NCBI GenBank assembly: GCA_902599495.1
Contig: CACKFY010000003.1
Span: 48,204 to 112,203 of the forward strand
Source of the DNA: an uncultured Pelagibacteraceae bacterium
GTDB taxonomy: Bacteria > Pseudomonadota > Alphaproteobacteria > Pelagibacterales > Pelagibacteraceae
Reading direction: 5' to 3'
DNA length: 64,000 bases
The notes under the pieces were generated by a model, which saw only the letters and a program-made list of their open reading frames with translations, had not been told where the DNA came from and ran no database searches. Positions 3,169 through 27,535 of this stretch are shown here, in pieces. Every line of letters starts with the position of its first letter. Position 1 is the first letter of the stretch. The translations under genes and the position numbers were made by a program.

Positions 3169-4065
3169 ATGATTAAGAAACTAAATTTTGCAGTTATATT
3201 CAACGCCAATGCAGCAGGCGGTAGAAAACTTAAGTTAATTAATAAGGTCATTTATCTTCTAGAGAAAAATCACACTGTAGAACTTTTTAAAACTCAAAGT
3301 GAAGAACATGCGAGAAAAGTGTTTAAAGAATTGTCTAATAAACAATTTGATCGATTAGTATTTGCTGGAGGTGACGGAAGTGTTTGCTTTGGTATCAATG
3401 AAATGTTTAAAAGTGACAATTTAAAAGACAAATTAGTTGGATACATACCTGCAGGTACTGCAAATATTCTGCAAATAGAAACTCAAATTAAGAAAAAGGC
3501 TGAGGAGATTTACAATGTCCTCGTATCAGATAATCATAAGAAAATTTCATTAGCAAAAATAAATGATAAGTATTTTTTCTTAATGGCTGGTGTAGGTTTT
3601 GACTCTAGAATTGTTGAGTCCATAAATACAAATATTAAAAAGTATCTCGGAAAAGTAATTTTTGCTTTTAAAGGTTTTCAGCATTTTTTATTTTTAAAGA
3701 ATAATAAAATGGAGGTTGAGTTAGAAAATGAAAAAATAATGGCTGATTGGATTTTATGTACTAATTCAAAATACTATGCTGGTCCCCATTCTATTACAAA
3801 CGATACAAATATATTTGAAAACAAGATAGTGGCTTACATATTTAAAGACCTAACCAGAATAAAATTGCTTTACTATGTTTGGTTAATATTGACTAAGGGT
3901 GACTTAGGTCCAGCAAAAAGTGTGATCAAAAAAGAACTGGACAGATTAAAAATAAATGGCGTTAACAATAAAGTTCTATCTCAGGTTGACGGTGAAAATT
4001 GTGGTTACGTAAACAGTCTTGAAATCCAAAAAACAGACAGGTTTATCAATTTATTAGTTCCGTAA
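3169..4065 (+). CDS. Diacylglycerol kinase catalytic-domain lipid kinase
   Basis: FNANAAGG, FAGGDGSV, PAGTANI, GVGFDS motifs of the DAGK_cat family. Confidence 0.85.
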   Translation: MIKKLNFAVIFNANAAGGRKLKLINKVIYLLEKNHTVELFKTQSEEHARKVFKELSNKQFDRLVFAGGDGSVCFGINEMFKSDNLKDKLVGYIPAGTANILQIETQIKKKAEEIYNVLVSDNHKKISLAKINDKYFFLMAGVGFDSRIVESINTNIKKYLGKVIFAFKGFQHFLFLKNNKMEVELENEKIMADWILCTNSKYYAGPHSITNDTNIFENKIVAYIFKDLTRIKLLYYVWLILTKGDLGPAKSVIKKELDRLKINGVNNKVLSQVDGENCGYVNSLEIQKTDRFINLLVP

Positions 4066-4171
4066 AATTTTCTAAATTTTTTTTCAACTTTTAGTTTAAA
4101 AGGTTTTTCTAAATTTCATTTGAAAACTTTTTAAAACTGTTCTAAGATTTTTAAGTTTTTGGAGGAACAAT

Positions 4172-4372
4172 ATGAAAAAAAAATTGAAAAAAAACGAAAA
4201 AAAGAAAAAGAAAATACTAAAATCAATCGATAAGCTTAAAAATAAAATAAGCACTAAACAAAAAAAACTATCAAAGGTTGAACTAAAGATAGCTAGTCTC
4301 GAGAAAAAAATTGCTGAAAAAAAAGCTAGCAAAAATAATAAAGAGCCTATCGCAGCATCTTTAAATAATTAG
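4172..4372 (+). CDS. Small Lys-rich coiled-coil protein
   Basis: GGAGG ribosome-binding site just upstream of ATG; KKKLKKNEKKKKKILKSIDKLKNKISTKQKKLSKVELKIASLEKKIAEKKA; followed by terminator. Confidence 0.6.
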   Translation: MKKKLKKNEKKKKKILKSIDKLKNKISTKQKKLSKVELKIASLEKKIAEKKASKNNKEPIAASLNN

Positions 4373-4391
4373 TTTATATAGAAATTAAATG

Positions 4392-4422
4392 CCCCTGATC
4401 CTAAAAATCAGGGGTTTATTTT
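4392..4422 (+). terminator. Rho-independent terminator
   Basis: CCCCTGAT-ctaaaa-ATCAGGGG perfect 8-bp stem followed by TTTATTTT. Confidence 0.8.
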
Positions 4423-4760
4423 AATTCACCAAAAAGGTTTAAAAGTATTACTCCTGAAACAATTAAGATTAATCCAACAGTTCCATAAAGGTTTGGGGTT
4501 TGATTATATTTAAATATTCCAAATAATGTAACTGCGGTTATCGTTAATGCTCCGTAGGTCGCATAAGTAAATCCAACTGGAATTATTGTCATTGCTCTAG
4601 ATAAACAAAAAATACAAACAACAATACTTGAAATACAAAAAAGTGTAGGTGTAAGCTTAGTAAAACTTTCTGTAGTTTTTAAAAAACCGTTAGTGGCAAT
4701 ACCTGTAATGATTGCAAGAGTTAAATAAATATATCCTGAAAATAAACTTAAACTCTTCAT
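4416..4760 (-). CDS. SMR-family small multidrug/EmrE-like membrane transporter
   Basis: 114 aa, four hydrophobic helices, GYIYLTLAIITGIATNGFLKTTESFTKLTP resembling SMR TM1. Confidence 0.65.
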   Translation of the reverse strand: MKSLSLFSGYIYLTLAIITGIATNGFLKTTESFTKLTPTLFCISSIVVCIFCLSRAMTIIPVGFTYATYGALTITAVTLFGIFKYNQTPNLYGTVGLILIVSGVILLNLFGELK

Positions 4761-5704
4761 TTTGCTTTTGCGAATTGCCCTCCATCACGATAACGCCACA
4801 ACCATTTTTCCATAGCTTGTTCAACGTCTTTTGGATTTATCTCTAAATCACTAATTGTAAGCTCTTTATTAGAAACAACATTATCAGCCTCTGATAAAAT
4901 TTCACATTGGTCTCTCGTTAAAACTGGTGGGATCGGTAATAAGCTTAAAATTGAACTTTGTATTTTCGCTATAGCCATAGGCATCTCTATAACAAATCTT
5001 TTTTTATTAATAGTTTTCATGATAGATTTTACCATATCACCGAAACTTATTACTGTAGGGCCACCTATCTCGTAAATTTTTCCCTCGTTCTTTTTTGCCT
5101 GTATAGCTTTAACAATAGCATCAGCTACATCTGTTACCATTATCGGTTGAAATTTATAATCTATTCCCACAATTGGAATTACTGGTGAAAAACTTAATTT
5201 AGAAAATAAATTAGTGAAATTATCTTCAGGTCCGCACACAACGCTTGGTCTTATTATTACTGTGTTTTTAAAGTTCATTAGAGATTTTTCTTCTCCAGCA
5301 AATTTAGATCTTTGATATGCAGATTTTGAATCTTTGTTGGCCCCTATTGCTGAAACATGAATATATTTTTTGACTTTATGTTTTTCACATAATCTTGAAA
5401 TAATATCTGGGATATCTGAGTGAATTTTTGTAAATTTTTGCTTTCTATTTTCAAACAAAATTCCAATTAAATTAATCACCACATCCGAATTACTGATGGC
5501 CTCTTCTATTTTATCAAAATTTTTTGCTTTAAAATCAATTAACTCAACAGCGCCTGAAGGGGCTTGGGTCTTAAGATAGCCCTTTTGGAACGCGTTTCTA
5601 GTTGGAATGATGCATCTATAGTGTTTATTCGTCAAATTTCGAACAAGATATCGTCCTATAAATCCCCCACCGCCAAGGATTGTTGCTATTGGGTAATTGT
5701 TCAT
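4757..5704 (-). CDS. NAD(P)-binding SDR-family protein, complex I NDUFA9-like
   Basis: ATILGGGGFIGRYLVRNL Rossmann motif, extended SDR layout. Confidence 0.75.
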   Translation of the reverse strand: MNNYPIATILGGGGFIGRYLVRNLTNKHYRCIIPTRNAFQKGYLKTQAPSGAVELIDFKAKNFDKIEEAISNSDVVINLIGILFENRKQKFTKIHSDIPDIISRLCEKHKVKKYIHVSAIGANKDSKSAYQRSKFAGEEKSLMNFKNTVIIRPSVVCGPEDNFTNLFSKLSFSPVIPIVGIDYKFQPIMVTDVADAIVKAIQAKKNEGKIYEIGGPTVISFGDMVKSIMKTINKKRFVIEMPMAIAKIQSSILSLLPIPPVLTRDQCEILSEADNVVSNKELTISDLEINPKDVEQAMEKWLWRYRDGGQFAKAK

Positions 5705-5718
5705 GGTAATTAGATAAT

Positions 5719-6345
5719 ATGGTAAAAATTCATAGATTAAAAGGCGACATTACTCCCAAAATAGCTAGCTCATTTAAAGGAAGTATTGCAATAGATACTG
5801 AAGCAACTGGTCTTAAAATTCCAGGGAGGGATAAATTAAGTTTAATACAAATTTGCGGAAAAGATGGAGAAGTTTTTATCATTCAACCTGATAGAAATAA
5901 TTATAAAGCACCAAACTTGGTTTCTTTATTAGAAAATGAAAAAATTCTAAAAATTGGACACTTTCTCAGATTCGACAAAAATGCTCTAGAATATTTTTTA
6001 AAATGTAAAATAAAGAATATCTTTGATACCAAAATTGCATCTAAAGTCGTAAGAACTTATACCGATCAACATGGATTAAAAAATTTGGTTTTTGAGTTTT
6101 GCAACAAAAATTTGGACAAAAGACAAGGAAGCTCGGACTGGAATAAGGACTTAGATGAACTAACTGATAAACAATTAGAATACGCAGCTGGAGATGTCAT
6201 TTATTTGCACAAAATTAAAGCTCAATTAGAAAAAATGCTAGTAAGAGAGAAGAGGATAAATTTATATAAAAGATGTATTGATTTTTTAGATACAAGAATC
6301 GAGTTAGACCAAAACGGTTTTAAGTTTGATATTTTTGAACATTAA
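5719..6345 (+). CDS. rnd: Ribonuclease D-like 3'-5' exonuclease
   Basis: IAIDTEATGL, KIGHFLRFDKNAL, YAAGDVIYL (DEDDy motifs). Confidence 0.85.
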   Translation: MVKIHRLKGDITPKIASSFKGSIAIDTEATGLKIPGRDKLSLIQICGKDGEVFIIQPDRNNYKAPNLVSLLENEKILKIGHFLRFDKNALEYFLKCKIKNIFDTKIASKVVRTYTDQHGLKNLVFEFCNKNLDKRQGSSDWNKDLDELTDKQLEYAAGDVIYLHKIKAQLEKMLVREKRINLYKRCIDFLDTRIELDQNGFKFDIFEH

Positions 6346-7322
6346 TGAATAAAAAAAACTACATAAAACTAGCAAGAAAATCTGCGGCTAAACAAATTTC
6401 TGAGCTTAAAAAAATTAATAAAGTTTTTAATAGCTCTTTTGTCAGAGCTATTGAGTCAATTTATCAATGTAGAGGTAAGGTAATCTGTGCTGGAATAGGA
6501 AAATCAGGTTTGATTGCTAGAAAAGTTTCTGCAACTTTATCATCTGTAGGTATCTCATCATTTTTTTTAAGTCCCAGTGAAGCAAATCATGGTGATCTAG
6601 GGCAAATTGATAAGAAAGATTTACTATTAGTTTTCTCTTATTCTGGAAACACAACAGAACTTACCAGTATTTTAAAATATGCAAACAGATTTAATATTAA
6701 GATAATCGGAGTTGCTTCAAAGCCAGATAGTACATTAATTAAGGCAAGTGATATTAAAATATTAATTCCAAGTGTAAAGGAAGCAGATCCCACAGGAATG
6801 GTGCCGACATCAAGCACAAGTATAACTTTATTATTGGGTGACTGCTTAGCTGTAGCTTTAATGAATAAAATTAAATTTTCAAAAGAAAGGTTTAAAGTCT
6901 TTCATCCGGGTGGGAATATCGGTCAAGCTTTGCTTTTGGTAAAAGATATAATGGTTTCTGGCTCAAAAATTCCAAAAATAAAAATATCAAGCAATATTAA
7001 AGAAGCTTCAAGTAAAATTACAAGATATAAACTTGGGTTAGCAATAGTTATGAAAAAAAATGTTGTTGCAGGTATTCTAACTGATGGAGACGCTAGAAGA
7101 AGTTTGCGGTATAACTTAAAATCTCAAAATCTAAAAAATATTATGACTTCAAAACCTATATTTATTTCAGAAAATTCTTCCGCTTCAAAGGCTTTGGCAA
7201 TAATGAATAAAAAAAAAATTACGAGTCTTTTAGTTACTTCTGAAAAAAATTTAAATAATAAAAATAAAAAATTAAAGGGTATTGTTCATATTCATTCAAT
7301 ATTACAATATGGAATTAAATGA
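6345..7322 (+). CDS. kdsD: Arabinose-5-phosphate isomerase (KdsD/KpsF family)
   Basis: SIS domain GIGKSGLIARK, SPSEANHGDLG, C-terminal CBS pair. Confidence 0.9.
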   Translation: MNKKNYIKLARKSAAKQISELKKINKVFNSSFVRAIESIYQCRGKVICAGIGKSGLIARKVSATLSSVGISSFFLSPSEANHGDLGQIDKKDLLLVFSYSGNTTELTSILKYANRFNIKIIGVASKPDSTLIKASDIKILIPSVKEADPTGMVPTSSTSITLLLGDCLAVALMNKIKFSKERFKVFHPGGNIGQALLLVKDIMVSGSKIPKIKISSNIKEASSKITRYKLGLAIVMKKNVVAGILTDGDARRSLRYNLKSQNLKNIMTSKPIFISENSSASKALAIMNKKKITSLLVTSEKNLNNKNKKLKGIVHIHSILQYGIK

Positions 7323-7906
7323 GCTATAGAAAAAAGAGACTGCTTTTAATTCAAATTTTACTTTTTACAACGGCAATATTATTAATGTATATATTCTATT
7401 ATCAAGGTACTTCTAATGATAAGGAGGTAGAAAAAGTTGAGCTTAAAAACGAAGAATTGACAGGTGATAATTCTGCAAATTTTTTTGAGGATGTTGAATA
7501 CAGAGGTCTAGACGCGAACGGAAATAGATATTTACTAGAATCTGAAGTTGCGTCTTTTAATGATGATAAACCTGAGCTTATAGATATGATTGGTATGAAT
7601 GCTACTTTTTACTTCAAGGATGGAAAAACACTTAAAGTTTCTGGAGATAAAGGGAAATATAATAATAAGACAAATGATATGTTGTTCAGAGATAATGTTG
7701 TCGTACTACAAGCAGATAATGAAATATTTGCTGATAATTTGGACTATTTTAATTTAAAAAAATTAATTAAAATATATGGTAACGTTAAAGGAAAAAGTTT
7801 AGATGGAAATTTTACTTCTGATATTTTAAACTTAAGTATTGAAGATCAAGCTGTTGAATTATTAATGAAAGATAATGAACAAGTAAAAATAAATCTAGAA
7901 AAATGA
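7319..7906 (+). CDS. lptC: LPS export protein LptC
   Basis: Single N-terminal TM, beta-rich OstA-like region; position between kdsD and lptB. Confidence 0.75.
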   Translation: MSYRKKRLLLIQILLFTTAILLMYIFYYQGTSNDKEVEKVELKNEELTGDNSANFFEDVEYRGLDANGNRYLLESEVASFNDDKPELIDMIGMNATFYFKDGKTLKVSGDKGKYNNKTNDMLFRDNVVVLQADNEIFADNLDYFNLKKLIKIYGNVKGKSLDGNFTSDILNLSIEDQAVELLMKDNEQVKINLEK

Positions 7907-8667
7907 AAAAAAGCTTTAAAATCATAAAATTCAAAAAATCAAAAACTCGATTTGAATTTCAAAATATAAGTAAATCATTTGATGGTCGGCCAATTTTAAA
8001 AAAAGTATCCATGAAAGTGTATCCAGGAGAAATAGTTGGATTATTAGGACCAAACGGTGCTGGAAAAACTACATTATTCAATATTGCAATTGGTGCGGAG
8101 AATGCAGACAACGGTAATATTTTAATTGACGGAAAATCTATAAAAGATATTCCTATTCATTTGAGATCAAAAAGTGGTTTGTCTTATTTACCTCAAACAA
8201 GATCTCTTTTTGATAATCTAAGTGTATTTGATAATTTGCATGGACTAGTCCAGCTATTTGAAAAAGATAATAGTAAAGCTATAGAAAAAACTGAACAATT
8301 ACTTAACAATTTTAACCTTGTCCATCTTAGTGGATTAAAAGCTTCGGCATTGTCAGGAGGAGAAAGCAAAAGAGTTTTGTTGGCAAGATTAATGATTAGC
8401 AATCCTAAGATAGTTTTAATTGACGAATTATTCAGTTTTGTCGATCCAATTGTAATTCAAGAAATGCAAAAATATATTTTTCAGATACAATCACAAGGCG
8501 TAAGCTGTATCTTGACTGACCATAGTGTAAATACTTTATTCGAGACAACAGATCGTAATTATATGATGACTGACGGCCATATTGTTGCTGAGGGAACTAA
8601 AAGTGAGTTACTAAAAAATTCAATAGCTATAAAGTCTTATTTTGGTCCAAGTTATAATAAGGATTAA
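7903..8667 (+). CDS. lptB: LPS export ABC transporter ATPase LptB
   Basis: GLLGPNGAGKTT Walker A, LSGGESKR signature, VLIDELF Walker B. Confidence 0.85.
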   Translation: MKKSFKIIKFKKSKTRFEFQNISKSFDGRPILKKVSMKVYPGEIVGLLGPNGAGKTTLFNIAIGAENADNGNILIDGKSIKDIPIHLRSKSGLSYLPQTRSLFDNLSVFDNLHGLVQLFEKDNSKAIEKTEQLLNNFNLVHLSGLKASALSGGESKRVLLARLMISNPKIVLIDELFSFVDPIVIQEMQKYIFQIQSQGVSCILTDHSVNTLFETTDRNYMMTDGHIVAEGTKSELLKNSIAIKSYFGPSYNKD

Positions 8668-10016
8668 TGTCTTCTAAGAGCTTTTCATTAACTATAAAAG
8701 ATAAGATTAAACCTTATAATAAAACTATAAAAGTGGACTCTGACAAGTCAATATCGATAAGATCCTTTTTATTTGGTTCTATAAGTAATGGAATCTCATC
8801 AATAAGAAATGTTTTAGAGTCTGAAGACGTGTTTTCCACAATTAATTGTCTAAAAAAATTAGGAGTAAAAATTGTTTACAAAAAAAAACAAAATTATCAA
8901 ATTTTTGGTAAAGGTCTAGGTTCTTACAATATTAAAAGTAATTCAAAATTGAATTTTGGAAACTCTGGAACTTTAGCAAGGTTAATTTTGGGTATTATCA
9001 CATCAACACCAAATATGAATTTAATAGTTTCTGGTGATAAATCTCTAAATAAAAGAAATATGAAAAAGTTAATTCAATTAATGAATGAATTTGGAGCCGA
9101 GTTTTTTCCAAAAAAAAAATATTTTTTTCCACTCCGCGTTTTATCGTCAAATTACCCTATCGGTATAAATTATCAATCAGGTACTTCGGCTCAGCTTAAA
9201 AGTGCAGTCATATTAGCTGGTTTAAACTCTTACGGTTTAACTCAAATTATCGAAAAACAAAAAAGTAGAGACCATACTGAGAATATGTTGAAAAAAAATA
9301 ATAAAGCTATGAAAATTGTAAATAAAAAAAATAAAATTATTAAAGTTATTGGGAAGGAAAGTTTAGATAAGTTTTCAGTAGACGTGCCTGGTGATCCGTC
9401 ATCTGCAGCTTTTTTTACAGCATTGACTTTGCTAAAAGAAAATTCTGTTCTTAAAATTAAAAATGTTGGACTTAATCCAACAAGAATTGGTTTTTATGAA
9501 TTATTAAAAAAAAGTGGAGCTAATATTAAATTTTTAAATATTAGAAAAGTTAATAACGAGAAAGTTGGAGATATTTTGGTTAAAAGCAGTAATTTAAAAC
9601 CTTTAAGGGCCTCAAAAAATTACATAACTAGCACCATGGATGAGTATCCAATTTTATTTGTTATGTCAGCTTTGATTAAAGGCAAAAGTTATTTCTATAA
9701 TCTTTCAAGTCTCAAGAACAAAGAGAGCAATAGGGTGTTAGAAATGCAAAAAATTTTAAAACAGATAGGAATTTATTCAAAACTTAATAAAGATAAATTA
9801 TTTATTATAGGGAAGAATATTCATACAATTGCTTTAAATAAGGTTAAAGTTAACAATGTTTTCGATCATCGCATAGCAATGGCATCAGCGATACTAGCTT
9901 TACTAACAGGTGTCAAAATCGTTATAAATGGTTTTGATACAGTTAAAACATCATCTCCAAATTTTTTAAAAATAATAAAAACTCTAGGTGGAAAATTTGA
10001 AAAGAAAAAAAATTAA
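8667..10016 (+). CDS. aroA: 3-phosphoshikimate 1-carboxyvinyltransferase
   Basis: DKSISIRSFL, NFGNSGTLARL, SSAAFFTALTLL, FDHRIAMASAI motifs. Confidence 0.9.
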   Translation: MSSKSFSLTIKDKIKPYNKTIKVDSDKSISIRSFLFGSISNGISSIRNVLESEDVFSTINCLKKLGVKIVYKKKQNYQIFGKGLGSYNIKSNSKLNFGNSGTLARLILGIITSTPNMNLIVSGDKSLNKRNMKKLIQLMNEFGAEFFPKKKYFFPLRVLSSNYPIGINYQSGTSAQLKSAVILAGLNSYGLTQIIEKQKSRDHTENMLKKNNKAMKIVNKKNKIIKVIGKESLDKFSVDVPGDPSSAAFFTALTLLKENSVLKIKNVGLNPTRIGFYELLKKSGANIKFLNIRKVNNEKVGDILVKSSNLKPLRASKNYITSTMDEYPILFVMSALIKGKSYFYNLSSLKNKESNRVLEMQKILKQIGIYSKLNKDKLFIIGKNIHTIALNKVKVNNVFDHRIAMASAILALLTGVKIVINGFDTVKTSSPNFLKIIKTLGGKFEKKKN

Positions 10017-10641
10017 ACAATTAGTTATTAGTTGCGACGGTGGGGCAGCAAGCGGTAAAACAACCGGTGCAAAGTTAGTATCAAAGAAATATAACCTTAA
10101 ATTTCTCTCTTCAGGCCTACTCTACAGATATGTAAGTTATCTTTTGCTTAAATCAAAACCAAGAAATAAAATATTTTTTTTGGAAAAAAAATTTAATAAC
10201 TTAAATTATAATAAATTAAAAAAAATAAACTTACATACTCCTGAAATTTCAGAGTATAGTGCGATTATAGCAAAAAATAAGGACGTAAGAAAAATCTTAA
10301 AAAGATATCAAATAAAATTTTCAAAAAAATTTAAAAGCTGCTGTATTGAAGGTAGAGACATATCTACAAAAATTTTACCAAATTCAGATCTTAAATTTTA
10401 TTTTATATGTAATATAAATACAGCAGCGCTTAGAAGATATAAAGAGCTTAAAAAAAAATCAAAAAATATTCGGCTAAAAGATGTAAAGCGAGCTTTAAGA
10501 AAACGAGATAGACTTGATAAACAGCGCAAAATTTCACCTTTACTTAAACATAGAGATTCGATAATTGTAAACACGCAAAAATTAAATAAAAAAGAAATGG
10601 TTGAAAAAATGTCAAAACATATAGAGAATTTAATTAATTAA
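9988..10641 (+). CDS. cmk: Cytidylate kinase
   Basis: SCDGGAASGKTTGAK P-loop, SSGLLYRYV, IEGRDI motifs. Confidence 0.85.
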   Translation: MENLKRKKIKQLVISCDGGAASGKTTGAKLVSKKYNLKFLSSGLLYRYVSYLLLKSKPRNKIFFLEKKFNNLNYNKLKKINLHTPEISEYSAIIAKNKDVRKILKRYQIKFSKKFKSCCIEGRDISTKILPNSDLKFYFICNINTAALRRYKELKKKSKNIRLKDVKRALRKRDRLDKQRKISPLLKHRDSIIVNTQKLNKKEMVEKMSKHIENLIN

Positions 10642-22296: not shown

Positions 22297-22578
22297 TTAT
22301 TGTTCGTATTTACTTAATTCTTTTTCTAAAACTTCTATTTCATTTAGAACTTTTCTGCAGTTAAAAGTACACAGTAAGTATCTAAAATATTTAATAAAAT
22401 CAGTAGGTAAATTTAATAATCGAACAAAGATATAAAGAATTGGTTGATCTTTATAAAACTCTCTTTGTATTTTATTGTAAAAATTTAAGCTTCGCAAATA
22501 TGCATTTGTATCTTTTAAATAATCTTTTGCGTATTCAAGTCTGTCTCTTAAAATATAATAGAAGTTATCTTTACGCAT
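22297..22578 (-). CDS. Hypothetical protein (93 aa)
   Basis: ORF 12 bp downstream of the Vsr-like gene, same strand. Confidence 0.5.
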   Translation of the reverse strand: MRKDNFYYILRDRLEYAKDYLKDTNAYLRSLNFYNKIQREFYKDQPILYIFVRLLNLPTDFIKYFRYLLCTFNCRKVLNEIEVLEKELSKYEQ

Positions 22579-22959: not shown

Positions 22960-23652
22960 CTAAATTTTTTTACGTGCAATCCCGGATCTTTCTTTTTTTA
23001 TATAATCAATTTCTTTTTTAAATTTGGTTTCAAAAAATTCTTGATTTTTTTTAAGATTTTTTAATTGCTTTTTATCTATAGTTAAACTTTCATCTATATT
23101 TAAATATTTTGTATCTTTTTTAAAATCTTTTTCTAAAATTGAAATCCAAGTTTTTATTTGTTCTAATTTTTCTGTTAGGACAGGTCCATTCACTCGTGAA
23201 GTTATTCCCCAAAAGTAACAAATTTGATCAAAAGTAGTATTTTCAACATTTTGAAATTTAAGGATTTTTTTCGCGATCTCATCTTCTAAAAATTTTTTTA
23301 CTTTTTCATATATGTTTCTGGAAAGATTGGCTCTCATTTCTTTTTTTTCAGATCTTTTACTTTTGAGCTCTTCTAAAATATAATTCTCAGCTGTGTCAGT
23401 TATTTTATATTGTTTTTCACCGACTTTTCTTATCCAGCCATTCTTATACATAGGACCATTTTTGTTCATTAAAAAAGTATAAATTTGATTTGAGTTTGGA
23501 AATTGCTGATAACCTCTAAGACTGAAATCATCTTGATAAAGTTCCCAACTTTTGACTGTAAGATCCTCAGCAGAAAAAATTTTTTTAGATTTCGACAGCT
23601 CACTAGCAGATATTAAAATTTTTTCAGCTTGGGATAATTTATTAGATTTCAT
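22960..23652 (-). CDS. Hypothetical protein with N-terminal winged-helix-like region, defence cassette
   Basis: DLTVKSWELYQDDFSLRGYQQFPNSNQIYTFLMNKNGPMYKNGWIRKVGEKQYKITDTAENYI; 1-nt overlap with upstream ATPase gene. Confidence 0.6.
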   Translation of the reverse strand: MKSNKLSQAEKILISASELSKSKKIFSAEDLTVKSWELYQDDFSLRGYQQFPNSNQIYTFLMNKNGPMYKNGWIRKVGEKQYKITDTAENYILEELKSKRSEKKEMRANLSRNIYEKVKKFLEDEIAKKILKFQNVENTTFDQICYFWGITSRVNGPVLTEKLEQIKTWISILEKDFKKDTKYLNIDESLTIDKKQLKNLKKNQEFFETKFKKEIDYIKKERSGIARKKI

Positions 23653-26024
23653 TATTCTACTTTAAATATCCCTGCGCTTAAAAGTCTTTCTAAATGTGGT
23701 TCAATAAGTTTATGGAATTTTGTGGTCTCTAAATCAATTAACTTTTGTCTTTCATCCATAGACTCGACTTCGGTATCTTTTTTATTCATTAAATTAATTC
23801 TTGCCATAATTTCAAACCATTGCATTACTACATAAATTCTAAATTGTTTAGATCTTGCTCCTGCTAAGTCACCAAAAGACTTGCTTTTACTTTCCCAAAG
23901 AAAATGAGCAAAAGGAGATTGTAAATTAATCCACCAAATATTTTTTTCTACATCCATTACTCTTTGCCAAACTGGAGGCGTGTCTCTTGAAAATCTTACA
24001 ACTTCCTCTTTTTCAGGTTCTAAGGGATCAAAACTAATTCCGCTATATTTGATTGTTGGAAAACCTCCTTCTTTAGGTTTTTTTTCTTTCTTCTCATTAT
24101 ACTCTATAATTACTTTTGCATCATTACTCTCACAATCTTGTGACATTGCTCTTATTTGTGTTTCACCTACACTTCTACCCCTTACTAAACCTGTAGATGC
24201 TGGAGAAGCTACTCTATCATCATTAGCAATGTAGGTTAAGTAAGCTGAAGAAATTTCAGAATTATTGTTATCAATAATTTTTGGATTAAGTCTGATACTT
24301 GTTCTTTCTTTAAATGAAAAAATTTTATCGTCGAAATTTATTTTAGAAATTTTAGTAACGTTGAGATTTACCCAGTTTGATTTTATCTTTTTATTTTTGG
24401 TTAAAACTCTTATAGCTGTTGATCCAGATTTTTTAGTCTGAAGCAAGTTTAACTTTCTTTCATGAGGAGCTACTATACTTTCATCTCTAATTTGAAAATC
24501 TAAACTTTCATTTGTAACTTCTTCACCATTCTCGTCAAAAGACTTAATATTAGGTCTAAAAACAACTCCAATACCGGCATATTTATGAGTAAACTTTAAT
24601 TCTATATGTGTAATTTTACCCTTTTTCTTAGGAGGGACCGGGGGATCAACATCGTCATCTTCATTACCGTCCTTTTCATTAGGTTTTCCTGAACCTTTAT
24701 CAGACCCAAAAGGATTGTCTAAAAATTTATTATCTTTAATAATGTCTTGCAGAGCTTCGCTGAATTGTAAGATTTTTTCTTGAGACTGTTTGTCAACCTT
24801 GTCACTCTCACTTTCTGCAAATTCTTTTGCAATTTCATCAATTATTTCTGACATCCAATGTTCCAAAGCTCTTATAAATGGATCTCTATTAAAGTCTTTT
24901 CTCGTATTTGAGGATCTTGCCTCTAGTCCGTCGTGAAAAACATCGCCATATAAATATTTAGGAAAGCCACTTGGGAAATTTGTTAGGTTTTTTACCCTAA
25001 ATAATCCATGAGTAACTTTTAATCCTGTTGAGTGTCTTCCTCTAATTACATGTCTTTGTCTAAGAATAGGAGATTTTAAAAAGTCTGTATCTGAAGTTTT
25101 TAAAATTAAATATTTTTCTGTAGAATCTTTAAATGAAATAGTTTCTCCTGTAAGTGGATCAACAAGTTCATCTGGAATATCTATTTTTTTAGATTTGAAA
25201 AATTCATGTGGTAATATCTTTTCTTGTCTGTGGATGTAATCTTTATTAGTATTTTCTAGAATTTTTTTGCCGTCTTTTATTTGATACAAATTTATATTTT
25301 CAAGAGTTTCATAAGCTTCTGGATCCTTCAGAAATTCTTTAATAATATTACTAGGCACAAAATTTTTTGGGTTTTTACCAATAAAAAAAGTGAAATTTTC
25401 TATTTGTGAGAATTCACGCCTTAAAGTGAGTAATTTTGCGTAAGAGTACCCAAATTCTTTAAGTAATTTACTAAGTTTTGTTGCAGGATTAGTAACATGT
25501 TGTTCATCAAATACCTTTAAACCTAATTTTTTTGCTTTACCATAATTAGTTTCATACGTAAGCTGATTATATTTGTTGTTCAAGCACGTATGCCATGTTG
25601 CTTCTTCAAAGTGAAAAGCTCCATAAACTTTTCCACCATTACCGTGTCCTCCTCTAGCATCCTCTTTTTTTGTATGACTGTACAAAGCTGCATCTGATTT
25701 ATTGAGTACCTCAAATTTTTCTACTCTCGATCTGTCAAAACCTATAAAATCTAAAAAACCGATTAATGGAACATCTTTAGCACTTTTTCGTTGTGAAAAT
25801 AATAGAATACAATCTCTACCTGTATGCTTAGGTGCAACTTTGTTTCCTATCATTGCATTTTCAGAATTTTTAGCTAATTCTCTTAAACCTTCAGCGTGCG
25901 AACTTAGAGTTCTTGATAACGATTTGAATGTACTATCGTAATCAATTCTGTTTGAAATTCTAAAATTTGCTTTAGAATTATTTTCTTTTTGATTAGTATC
26001 TTCCATAAAATTTACAATTTCCAT
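23652..26024 (-). CDS. GHKL-family ATPase (MORC/MutL/Hsp90-like) with Ig-like (Big_2-like) mid-region
   Basis: N-box LRELAKNSENAM, IGFLDFIGFD, GGHGNGGKVYGAFHF; C-terminal half has DDRVASPASTGLVRGRSVGETQIRAMS. Confidence 0.75.
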   Translation of the reverse strand: MEIVNFMEDTNQKENNSKANFRISNRIDYDSTFKSLSRTLSSHAEGLRELAKNSENAMIGNKVAPKHTGRDCILLFSQRKSAKDVPLIGFLDFIGFDRSRVEKFEVLNKSDAALYSHTKKEDARGGHGNGGKVYGAFHFEEATWHTCLNNKYNQLTYETNYGKAKKLGLKVFDEQHVTNPATKLSKLLKEFGYSYAKLLTLRREFSQIENFTFFIGKNPKNFVPSNIIKEFLKDPEAYETLENINLYQIKDGKKILENTNKDYIHRQEKILPHEFFKSKKIDIPDELVDPLTGETISFKDSTEKYLILKTSDTDFLKSPILRQRHVIRGRHSTGLKVTHGLFRVKNLTNFPSGFPKYLYGDVFHDGLEARSSNTRKDFNRDPFIRALEHWMSEIIDEIAKEFAESESDKVDKQSQEKILQFSEALQDIIKDNKFLDNPFGSDKGSGKPNEKDGNEDDDVDPPVPPKKKGKITHIELKFTHKYAGIGVVFRPNIKSFDENGEEVTNESLDFQIRDESIVAPHERKLNLLQTKKSGSTAIRVLTKNKKIKSNWVNLNVTKISKINFDDKIFSFKERTSIRLNPKIIDNNNSEISSAYLTYIANDDRVASPASTGLVRGRSVGETQIRAMSQDCESNDAKVIIEYNEKKEKKPKEGGFPTIKYSGISFDPLEPEKEEVVRFSRDTPPVWQRVMDVEKNIWWINLQSPFAHFLWESKSKSFGDLAGARSKQFRIYVVMQWFEIMARINLMNKKDTEVESMDERQKLIDLETTKFHKLIEPHLERLLSAGIFKVE

Positions 26025-26494: not shown

Positions 26495-27535
26495 ATGGGA
26501 AAAAATCCGATAAAAAAAAAATTAAATGGAAGTGGAATTATTTACCGCGAAATAGCCAAGAAAAATGGCGGGATCATTTATCAAGGAAATTCTCTCCAAT
26601 TAATCAATAATCCAAAATTTATTAGAAGATATGAGGGTAAAATAGACTTGATACTTACTTCCCCTCCATTTGCACTTAATAATCCAAAAAATTATGGCAA
26701 TCATGCAGGTAATAAAAAACCCAACGCATCTTTAGCTGTTGGAGAAGGAGAAGAATATATAAAATGGTTTTCTAGTTATGCAAAGCCACTTGCAAAACTT
26801 CTTTCAAAAAAAGGTTCAATTGTAGTTGAGATGGGCAATTCTTGGACCAGAGGAGAGCCGACCATGTCTTTGACCACTTATGAGGCTTTAAAGGGATTTA
26901 TGAAAAAAGGCAATCTTAAATTATGCCAAGAATTTATTTGGAATAATACAGCAAAACTCCCGGGTCCAGCTCAATGGGTTACAAAAAATAGATGGAGAGC
27001 AAAAGACTCTTTTACAAAAATTTGGTGGTTCTCAAAAACTGCATACCCAAAAGCAAATAATCGTAAAATTCTTAAGCCCTATAGTAAGGAAATGATAAAA
27101 TTATTAAACAGGCAGACGTATAATTTTGGTAAAAGATCTTCGGGTCATAGAATTTCAGCCGAAAGTTTTTTAAATAGAAATAAAGGCTCAATACCATCAA
27201 ATGTATTTAAAAACGAGGAATTTTATTTAAAGGACCCTTCCAGTGTAATTGAGATATCAAATACGATCGAAACAAAATATTTAAGGTATTGTAAAATAAA
27301 TAATATACAAATCCATGATGCTCGGATGCCTACGCATATTGCTGCGTTTTTTATTGATTTTTTAACCACTCCTGGAGATAAAGTTTTAGATCCCTTTGCA
27401 GGTTCTAATACAACAGGATACGTTGCATCGCGAAAAAAAAGAAAATGGGTTTCAATAGAATTAAATAGAGATTATATAAGAGGTAGCTTGGGATGGTTTA
27501 AGGGGAAAAAATATTTTAAGAATAAAGAAATATAA
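26495..27535 (+). CDS. Site-specific DNA methyltransferase, TSPP type (likely N4-cytosine, class beta order)
   Basis: DLILTSPPFALNNPKNYGN (catalytic motif) precedes VLDPFAGSNTTGYVA (SAM-binding motif). Confidence 0.85.
   Translation: MGKNPIKKKLNGSGIIYREIAKKNGGIIYQGNSLQLINNPKFIRRYEGKIDLILTSPPFALNNPKNYGNHAGNKKPNASLAVGEGEEYIKWFSSYAKPLAKLLSKKGSIVVEMGNSWTRGEPTMSLTTYEALKGFMKKGNLKLCQEFIWNNTAKLPGPAQWVTKNRWRAKDSFTKIWWFSKTAYPKANNRKILKPYSKEMIKLLNRQTYNFGKRSSGHRISAESFLNRNKGSIPSNVFKNEEFYLKDPSSVIEISNTIETKYLRYCKINNIQIHDARMPTHIAAFFIDFLTTPGDKVLDPFAGSNTTGYVASRKKRKWVSIELNRDYIRGSLGWFKGKKYFKNKEI

Follow-up and report, generated by a model that had tools for sequence, protein, structure and literature searches.

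We show herein that a GHKL ATPase can carry a built-in pair of immunoglobulin (Ig)-like domains, and that this protein design is genuine, conserved widely and not catalogued before. The example studied here is encoded in a 64,000-nucleotide stretch of DNA (hereafter the window) from an uncultured Pelagibacteraceae bacterium of the SAR11 group, and no family of Pfam, NCBIfam or PADLOC recognises the ATPase family to which it belongs. GHKL ATPases have been known in restriction-modification operons since 2008, and the mechanism of most of them is obscure. The protein described here appears to be the ATPase component of a putative defence cassette, mobile and linked to methylation in a restriction-modification-like manner, in which the Ig pair may act as a rigid spacer within a DNA clamp; we give this reading a probability of about 0.45.

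The genes of the cassette and the parts of the ATPase are listed in Table 1. Read along the minus strand, a small open reading frame (ORF) is followed by the ATPase, a winged-helix partner, a Vsr-family endonuclease and a 93-aa ORF, and the gene for a DNA methyltransferase is divergent. The small ORF, missing from a preliminary description of this DNA, overlaps the start of the ATPase gene by 13 bases and is conserved in SAR11, Ensifer, Sphingomonadales, Desulfobacterales and a viral contig. The methyltransferase aligns with M.PvuII (1boo residues 13-293) at an E value of 1.6e-58 and matches Pfam N6_N4_Mtase at 1.2e-30. The Vsr-family protein also matches the NCBIfam model vsr at 2.3e-24, which is below that model's curated cut-off, and the 93-aa protein has no Pfam match. 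For the partner, a fold search gave weak winged-helix matches, none below an E value of 0.001, and the net charge of partner proteins is uniformly basic (+3 to +16). A Pfam match of the partner to Peptidase_M6 was set aside as chance.

Table 1. Features of the cassette and of the ATPase (window coordinates)
Feature	Position	Strand	Evidence or remarks
93-aa protein, downstream end of the cassette	22297..22578	-	homologs in L014 (71%) and L088 (30%)
Vsr-family endonuclease, 120 aa	22591..22953	-	Pfam Vsr 5.6e-12, above cut-off; PADLOC Vsr 2.5e-19
Partner protein, 230 aa	22960..23652	-	basic; N-terminal winged helix and helical C-terminal half (predicted)
GHKL ATPase with tandem Ig-like domains, 790 aa	23652..26024	-	ORF and translation, homologs, AlphaFold2
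ATPase: GHKL + S5 module, residues ~28-375	24900..25943	-	motif columns over 56 sequences; Foldseek
ATPase: long helix leaving the S5 domain, residues 382-431	24732..24881	-	AlphaFold2 secondary structure
ATPase: disordered charged/proline linker, residues ~441-468	24621..24704	-	pLDDT <50 at 441-465
ATPase: Ig-like domain 1 (Big_2 type), residues ~471-557	24354..24614	-	profile search, AlphaFold2, Foldseek
ATPase: Ig-like domain 2 (Big_2 type), residues ~558-645	24090..24353	-	Pfam, homologs, profile, AlphaFold2, Foldseek, PHROG
ATPase: conserved C-terminal domain, residues ~653-790	23655..24068	-	alignments, conservation, model
Small upstream ORF, 79 aa	26012..26251	-	homolog conservation
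N4-cytosine DNA methyltransferase, M.PvuII type, divergent	26495..27535	+	PDB 1boo, Pfam

Intact homologs of equal length occur in other SAR11 genomes, and the sequence of the ATPase shows no apparent signal peptide, in agreement with the preliminary description. Its AlphaFold2 model, built on a 34-sequence alignment, has a mean pLDDT of 82 and a pTM of 0.57, so that the relative placement of the domains is not fixed by it. The GHKL motif residues are E49 and N53 (N box), D92 and G95, G126-x-GNGGK132 and R375. N53, D92, G95, GxGNGGK and R375 are invariant in all 56 sequences aligned and E49 is present in 53; the G1 spacing is DFxG, unlike the usual DxGxG. The invariant R375 would be the conserved basic finger of the GHKL + S5 module. 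Among Pfam models, HATPase_c_3 gave only sub-threshold matches, in relatives. The best GHKL structures found by Foldseek were MORC3, MORC4 and MORC2 (1.6e-10 and weaker), which rank above TRAP1, topoisomerase IV and SMCHD1. The MORC signature motif GhXhhpXXRhl was found in the S5 domain of none of the 56 sequences. A PADLOC match to Cas8g (0.002) was set aside as chance. The helix leaving the S5 domain is about 50 residues long, and the C-terminal domain, which Ig-less relatives have too, contains a "WIN" motif at residues 698-700 and two long helices.

The middle of the protein had been read as two Big_2 repeats at residues ~450-680, and a tandem Ig pair of Big_2 type is indeed present there, with slightly narrower limits (~471-645). 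Taken by itself, the window ATPase has a weak Pfam Big_2 match at residues 597-632 (E 0.0096, below cut-off), and its residues 555-641 match a PHROG family of tail proteins (E 6e-6). Five homologs pass the gathering cut-off of Big_2 (PF02368), namely L019 (3.9e-8), L008 (7.4e-7), L007 (2.1e-6), L020 (3.7e-6) and L024 (1.2e-5). Searched against solved structures, a family profile of the Ig region matched a teneurin-like protein (3e-10), bglH (1e-8) and a surface protein of phage SU10 (2e-8), as well as Nup210, LigB and a BIG2 NMR structure. AlphaFold2 modelled residues 473-557 and 559-641 as two beta-sandwiches, with a block pLDDT of ~89-98, and the top Foldseek match of the pair was Leptospira LigA (5e-13). 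The region does not correspond to the S5-like transducer, since the S5 domain is separate, at about residues 251-375. Two further Pfam matches inside the Ig region, HL_N-beta (0.0011) and Ig_NUP210_15th (0.078), are sub-threshold. The first domain terminates in a conserved SNxV strand motif. It is fair to regard Big_2 folds as mainly extracellular or phage-structural modules; the closest solved matches here are of that kind, and those among viral structures are tail and head proteins.

Relatives of the ATPase were absent at first from a single-protein search of the viral_contigs set, from 289 genomes of the class, from phages searched by tblastn and from the PDB searched by phmmer. Use of a four-sequence alignment as the query recovered six relatives in viral contigs, and an eight-sequence alignment recovered 60 loci in genome contigs, in a scan biased by the use of a single conserved peptide pattern and of a tandem-Ig query. 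The 56 near-full-length sequences were sorted by the length of the segment that connects the helix to the C-terminal domain. Three architectures emerged: the tandem-Ig form (about 205-225 residues; 22 sequences), a form with a single extra domain (137-142 residues; 11 sequences) and a domain-less form (48-74 residues, with one sequence at 97; 23 sequences). Thus, the Ig pair and the linkers swap between two conserved ends of the ATPase. The single extra domain, of ~100 residues at the Ig position, occurs in L033-L035, L037, L038, L040, L043, L045, L048, L063 and L064, mainly Patescibacteria (CPR). A test of it as a further Ig-like domain gave no confirmation, with no PDB match and an hhalign probability of 0.2 against the Ig pair.

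In an unrooted quick tree built without bootstrap from the shared columns, with the Ig columns omitted, the tandem-Ig sequences form one side of one branch (SH-aLRT 99). All 22 sequences of that branch, from at least six phyla, possess the Ig pair. In this branch, the ATPase gene precedes that of the winged-helix partner; in the other branch, the partner comes first. The methyltransferase differs as well. Wherever one of the two methyltransferase types searched for was visible, it was the M.PvuII-like N4-cytosine type in 16 of 16 tandem-Ig loci and the C5 type, often with Vsr, in 19 of 19 loci of the other branch (16/0 vs 0/19; Fisher p 2e-10, a value that overstates the association because the split follows one deep branch). 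The preliminary description had asked whether other GHKL-Vsr operons keep the Ig insert; the branch usually associated with C5 methyltransferases and Vsr is without it. Among the tandem-Ig loci, Vsr itself was seen in two of 22, the window and L014. The link to a methyltransferase is not absolute, since L020 has none within 6 kb and L007 has McrB/McrC-like genes in its place. At L021, an adjacent gene reads by eye as a D12-type adenine methyltransferase.

Several loci deviate from the common layout. McrB-like AAA ATPase and McrC-like genes adjoin the tandem-Ig ATPase pair at L006 (3908-6891) and L007 (8018-11842), where they are possibly an alternative effector. AbrB-like and PIN-like pairs of the toxin-antitoxin type lie directly upstream of the ATPase in the distant genomes of L019 (5256-5884) and L024 (5265-5941). 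At L025 (747-3028), the ATPase is encoded in two ORFs overlapping by four bases, one for the GHKL + S5 part and one for the rest of the helix, the Ig pair and the C-terminal domain, which might reflect a frameshift or a natural split into two genes. A transposase-like gene breaks the ATPase gene of L026 (3520-4593) directly ahead of the Ig half. The ATPase ORFs of L036 (5953-7812) and L060 (5893-7029) stop after the S5 domain; at L036, the partner gene comes next, within about 25 bases, and the Ig pair and the C-terminal domain are missing.

The cassette is rare, being found in three of 397 related genomes. In L014, also SAR11, the same cassette lies as an insert of ~5.2 kb between ADP-ribosylglycohydrolase-like and RmuC-like genes. 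In the siblings L087 and L089, 17 bp separate this pair of genes, an empty site. The SAR11 cassette is a mobile insert. By eye, other copies adjoin tyrosine- or serine-recombinase-like genes or sit in a phage-like contig. At L008 (39-11897), a tandem-Ig cassette with an N4-methyltransferase lies amid terminase-, head- and portal-like genes, which suggests carriage by a phage or prophage. The same SAR11 spot is occupied in L088 (strain G322; 4016-10136) by another GHKL ATPase set, consisting of a GHKL protein of 725 aa, a C5-methyltransferase, two further proteins (292 and 261 aa) and Vsr. That set includes distant relatives of the 79-aa ORF (33%) and the 93-aa ORF (30%) of the window, and its GHKL protein matches the PADLOC candidate defence family PDC-M33A (6e-17). 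When the L088 GHKL protein was tested as a homolog of the window ATPase, no sequence similarity was found. Some beta-rich stretches, at the C-terminus of the L088 GHKL protein and within the 292-aa protein, resemble Ig domains by eye and have no library match.

A working model can be drawn from these parts. The methyltransferase, which belongs to the M.PvuII family, would mark host DNA with N4-methylcytosine. The GHKL + S5 module, whose fold and motifs are evident, would dimerise on ATP and clamp DNA in the manner of MORC and MutL; the earlier picture of Ig domains joined to an ATP-gated clamp holds as far as the fold goes, with the dimer and the clamp inferred. The basic partner, with its predicted winged helix, might load or address the ATPase to DNA. 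Lying between the ATP gate and the C-terminal domain, the two Ig domains could join them as a rigid spacer or scaffold. Finally, trapped unmethylated DNA might be blocked, or cut by a nuclease in trans such as the Vsr-type enzyme of the locus, this being the weakest step. Searches with Pfam, NCBIfam and PADLOC recognised no nuclease domain in either the ATPase or its partner, and an identifiable nuclease is absent from most tandem-Ig copies. Either a nuclease would act in trans or DNA would be blocked without cutting. A stronger form of the latter idea, that a MORC-like ATPase with Ig "legs" traps and silences unmethylated DNA with no nuclease at all, as in eukaryotic MORC silencing, strikes us as distinctly improbable.

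What the Ig pair itself does can be narrowed by its pattern of conservation. Mean identity is 31% for the first Ig domain and 25% for the second, compared with 32% for GHKL, 32% for S5 and 30% for the C-terminal domain. The pair thus diverges at about the rate of the ATPase and is neither hypervariable nor relaxed; a hypervariable Ig pair was ruled out on this ground. The first domain has a net charge anywhere from -7 to +8 and the second one from -7 to +1, which lends no support to DNA binding through basic charge. A charge that is not conserved suggests no conserved DNA-binding surface, and contact with DNA is more likely made by the ATPase module and the basic winged-helix partner than by the Ig pair. 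In relatives, the place of the pair is taken by a disordered-looking Gly-rich linker or by one other domain. MutL proteins have their long linker at the corresponding place, between the ATPase and C-terminal dimerisation domains. Because of its divergence, its charge and its linker position, we prefer to see the Ig pair as a rigid spacer or scaffold of a clamp gated by ATP, a role that position and steady divergence may indicate; docking of cassette partners ranks second and recognition of an invader third.

As a dock, the pair would hold the cassette's own winged-helix partner, the methyltransferase or the small-ORF product, in a manner specific to the N4 branch. It tracks both the methyltransferase type and the gene order exactly in this sample, and the conserved SNxV motif at the end of the first domain is a further point in favour of docking. 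Common descent alone would suffice to explain an association that follows one deep branch, though. The partner adjoins the ATPase in almost all relatives, Ig-less ones included, and the small ORF was not found beside every tandem-Ig copy. We therefore hold docking to be rather unlikely. The preliminary description had suggested an arm recognising phage structures or DNA; on binding an invader's protein or DNA, such an arm would trigger the ATPase. For Ig-like domains of BREX PglZ and DndH, a role in sensing invaders has been proposed (PMC12839542), Big_2 modules bind targets elsewhere, and the viral structures matched here are tail and head proteins. An arms race should nonetheless give hypervariability, and the number and place of the Ig domains are fixed in the branch, their divergence is about that of the catalytic part, they share no common charge, and relatives with the same two ends do without them. 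Such an arm thus has no positive support and is, in our view, unlikely.

A different explanation removes the cassette from defence and has the ATPase and winged-helix pair regulate expression of the methyltransferase, or act in Vsr-like repair. A methyltransferase gene with a winged-helix gene next to it is a frequent arrangement of regulators. Vsr repairs deaminated 5-methylcytosine. A Vsr gene sits in the window operon, and interplay of MutL with Vsr is established in E. coli (cited in PMC2292703). Here, however, the methyltransferase found with Vsr is of the N4-cytosine type, and Vsr is missing from most Ig-bearing loci; moreover, an ATP-driven protein of 790 aa would be unusual as a regulator, and the locus is a mobile insert. 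Regulation or repair is accordingly doubtful as the function of the pair. Nature provides a comparison, in that the same ATPase and C-terminal domain are joined by an Ig pair, by one other domain or by a bare linker, and in that the Ig pair tracks methyltransferase type across a family spanning many phyla. The nuclease-poor, Ig-bearing copies make non-cutting, MORC-like restriction directly testable, and a cultured host with a plasmid copy is available in Ensifer adhaerens (pCTYH.Ch1_3).

The names MORC and paraMORC1-5 have been given to GHKL ATPases of restriction-modification operons (Iyer, Abhiman and Aravind 2008, PMC2292703). An N-terminal GHKL + S5 module and DNA methyltransferase and Vsr neighbours are common to those proteins and the present system, which differs in the MORC motif (0/56), in having no helicase seen and in its N4-cytosine methyltransferase; that study makes no mention of Ig domains, whereas the window ATPase has a pair. 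VcSduA (paraMORC3, Shedu type I-D), a GHKL-nuclease tested as an anti-phage protein (PMC12137116), resembles it in its GHKL ATPase, clamp-like middle domain and anti-phage setting. VcSduA ends in a PD-(D/E)XK nuclease (DUF4263), whereas none is recognisable in the window ATPase, the C-terminal region of which had no match in Pfam, NCBIfam or PADLOC. With the MORC motif and the paraMORC3 nuclease both absent, the protein is MORC-type by fold and is not filed as MORC or paraMORC3. It could be a descendant or member of paraMORC1, 2, 4 or 5; the TIR domain of paraMORC4 was not among its Pfam matches. For MORC2, clamping of DNA has been demonstrated (PMC12216690), in support of the analogy with a clamp.

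The HEF_HK/Response_reg_2 elements (PMC8011034) share with the family a two-gene GHKL and partner arrangement beside a C5-methyltransferase and Vsr, and neither domain was matched by Pfam in the ATPase or in 27 partner proteins. The PvuII restriction-modification system has a similar methyltransferase, and no PvuII-type nuclease was recognised in the window cassette. In a search of mostly open-access literature, no paper was found that pairs GHKL with bacterial Ig-like domains. Ig-like beta-sandwiches do occur in cytoplasmic defence proteins, namely CoCoNuT McrC and BREX PglZ (PMC11090510, PMC12839542). Those have a single terminal Ig-like domain on other ATPase or nuclease frameworks, whereas the window protein carries tandem Big_2 domains within a GHKL protein. 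Given such proteins, Ig-like domains inside the cell are less strange than the preliminary description had supposed.
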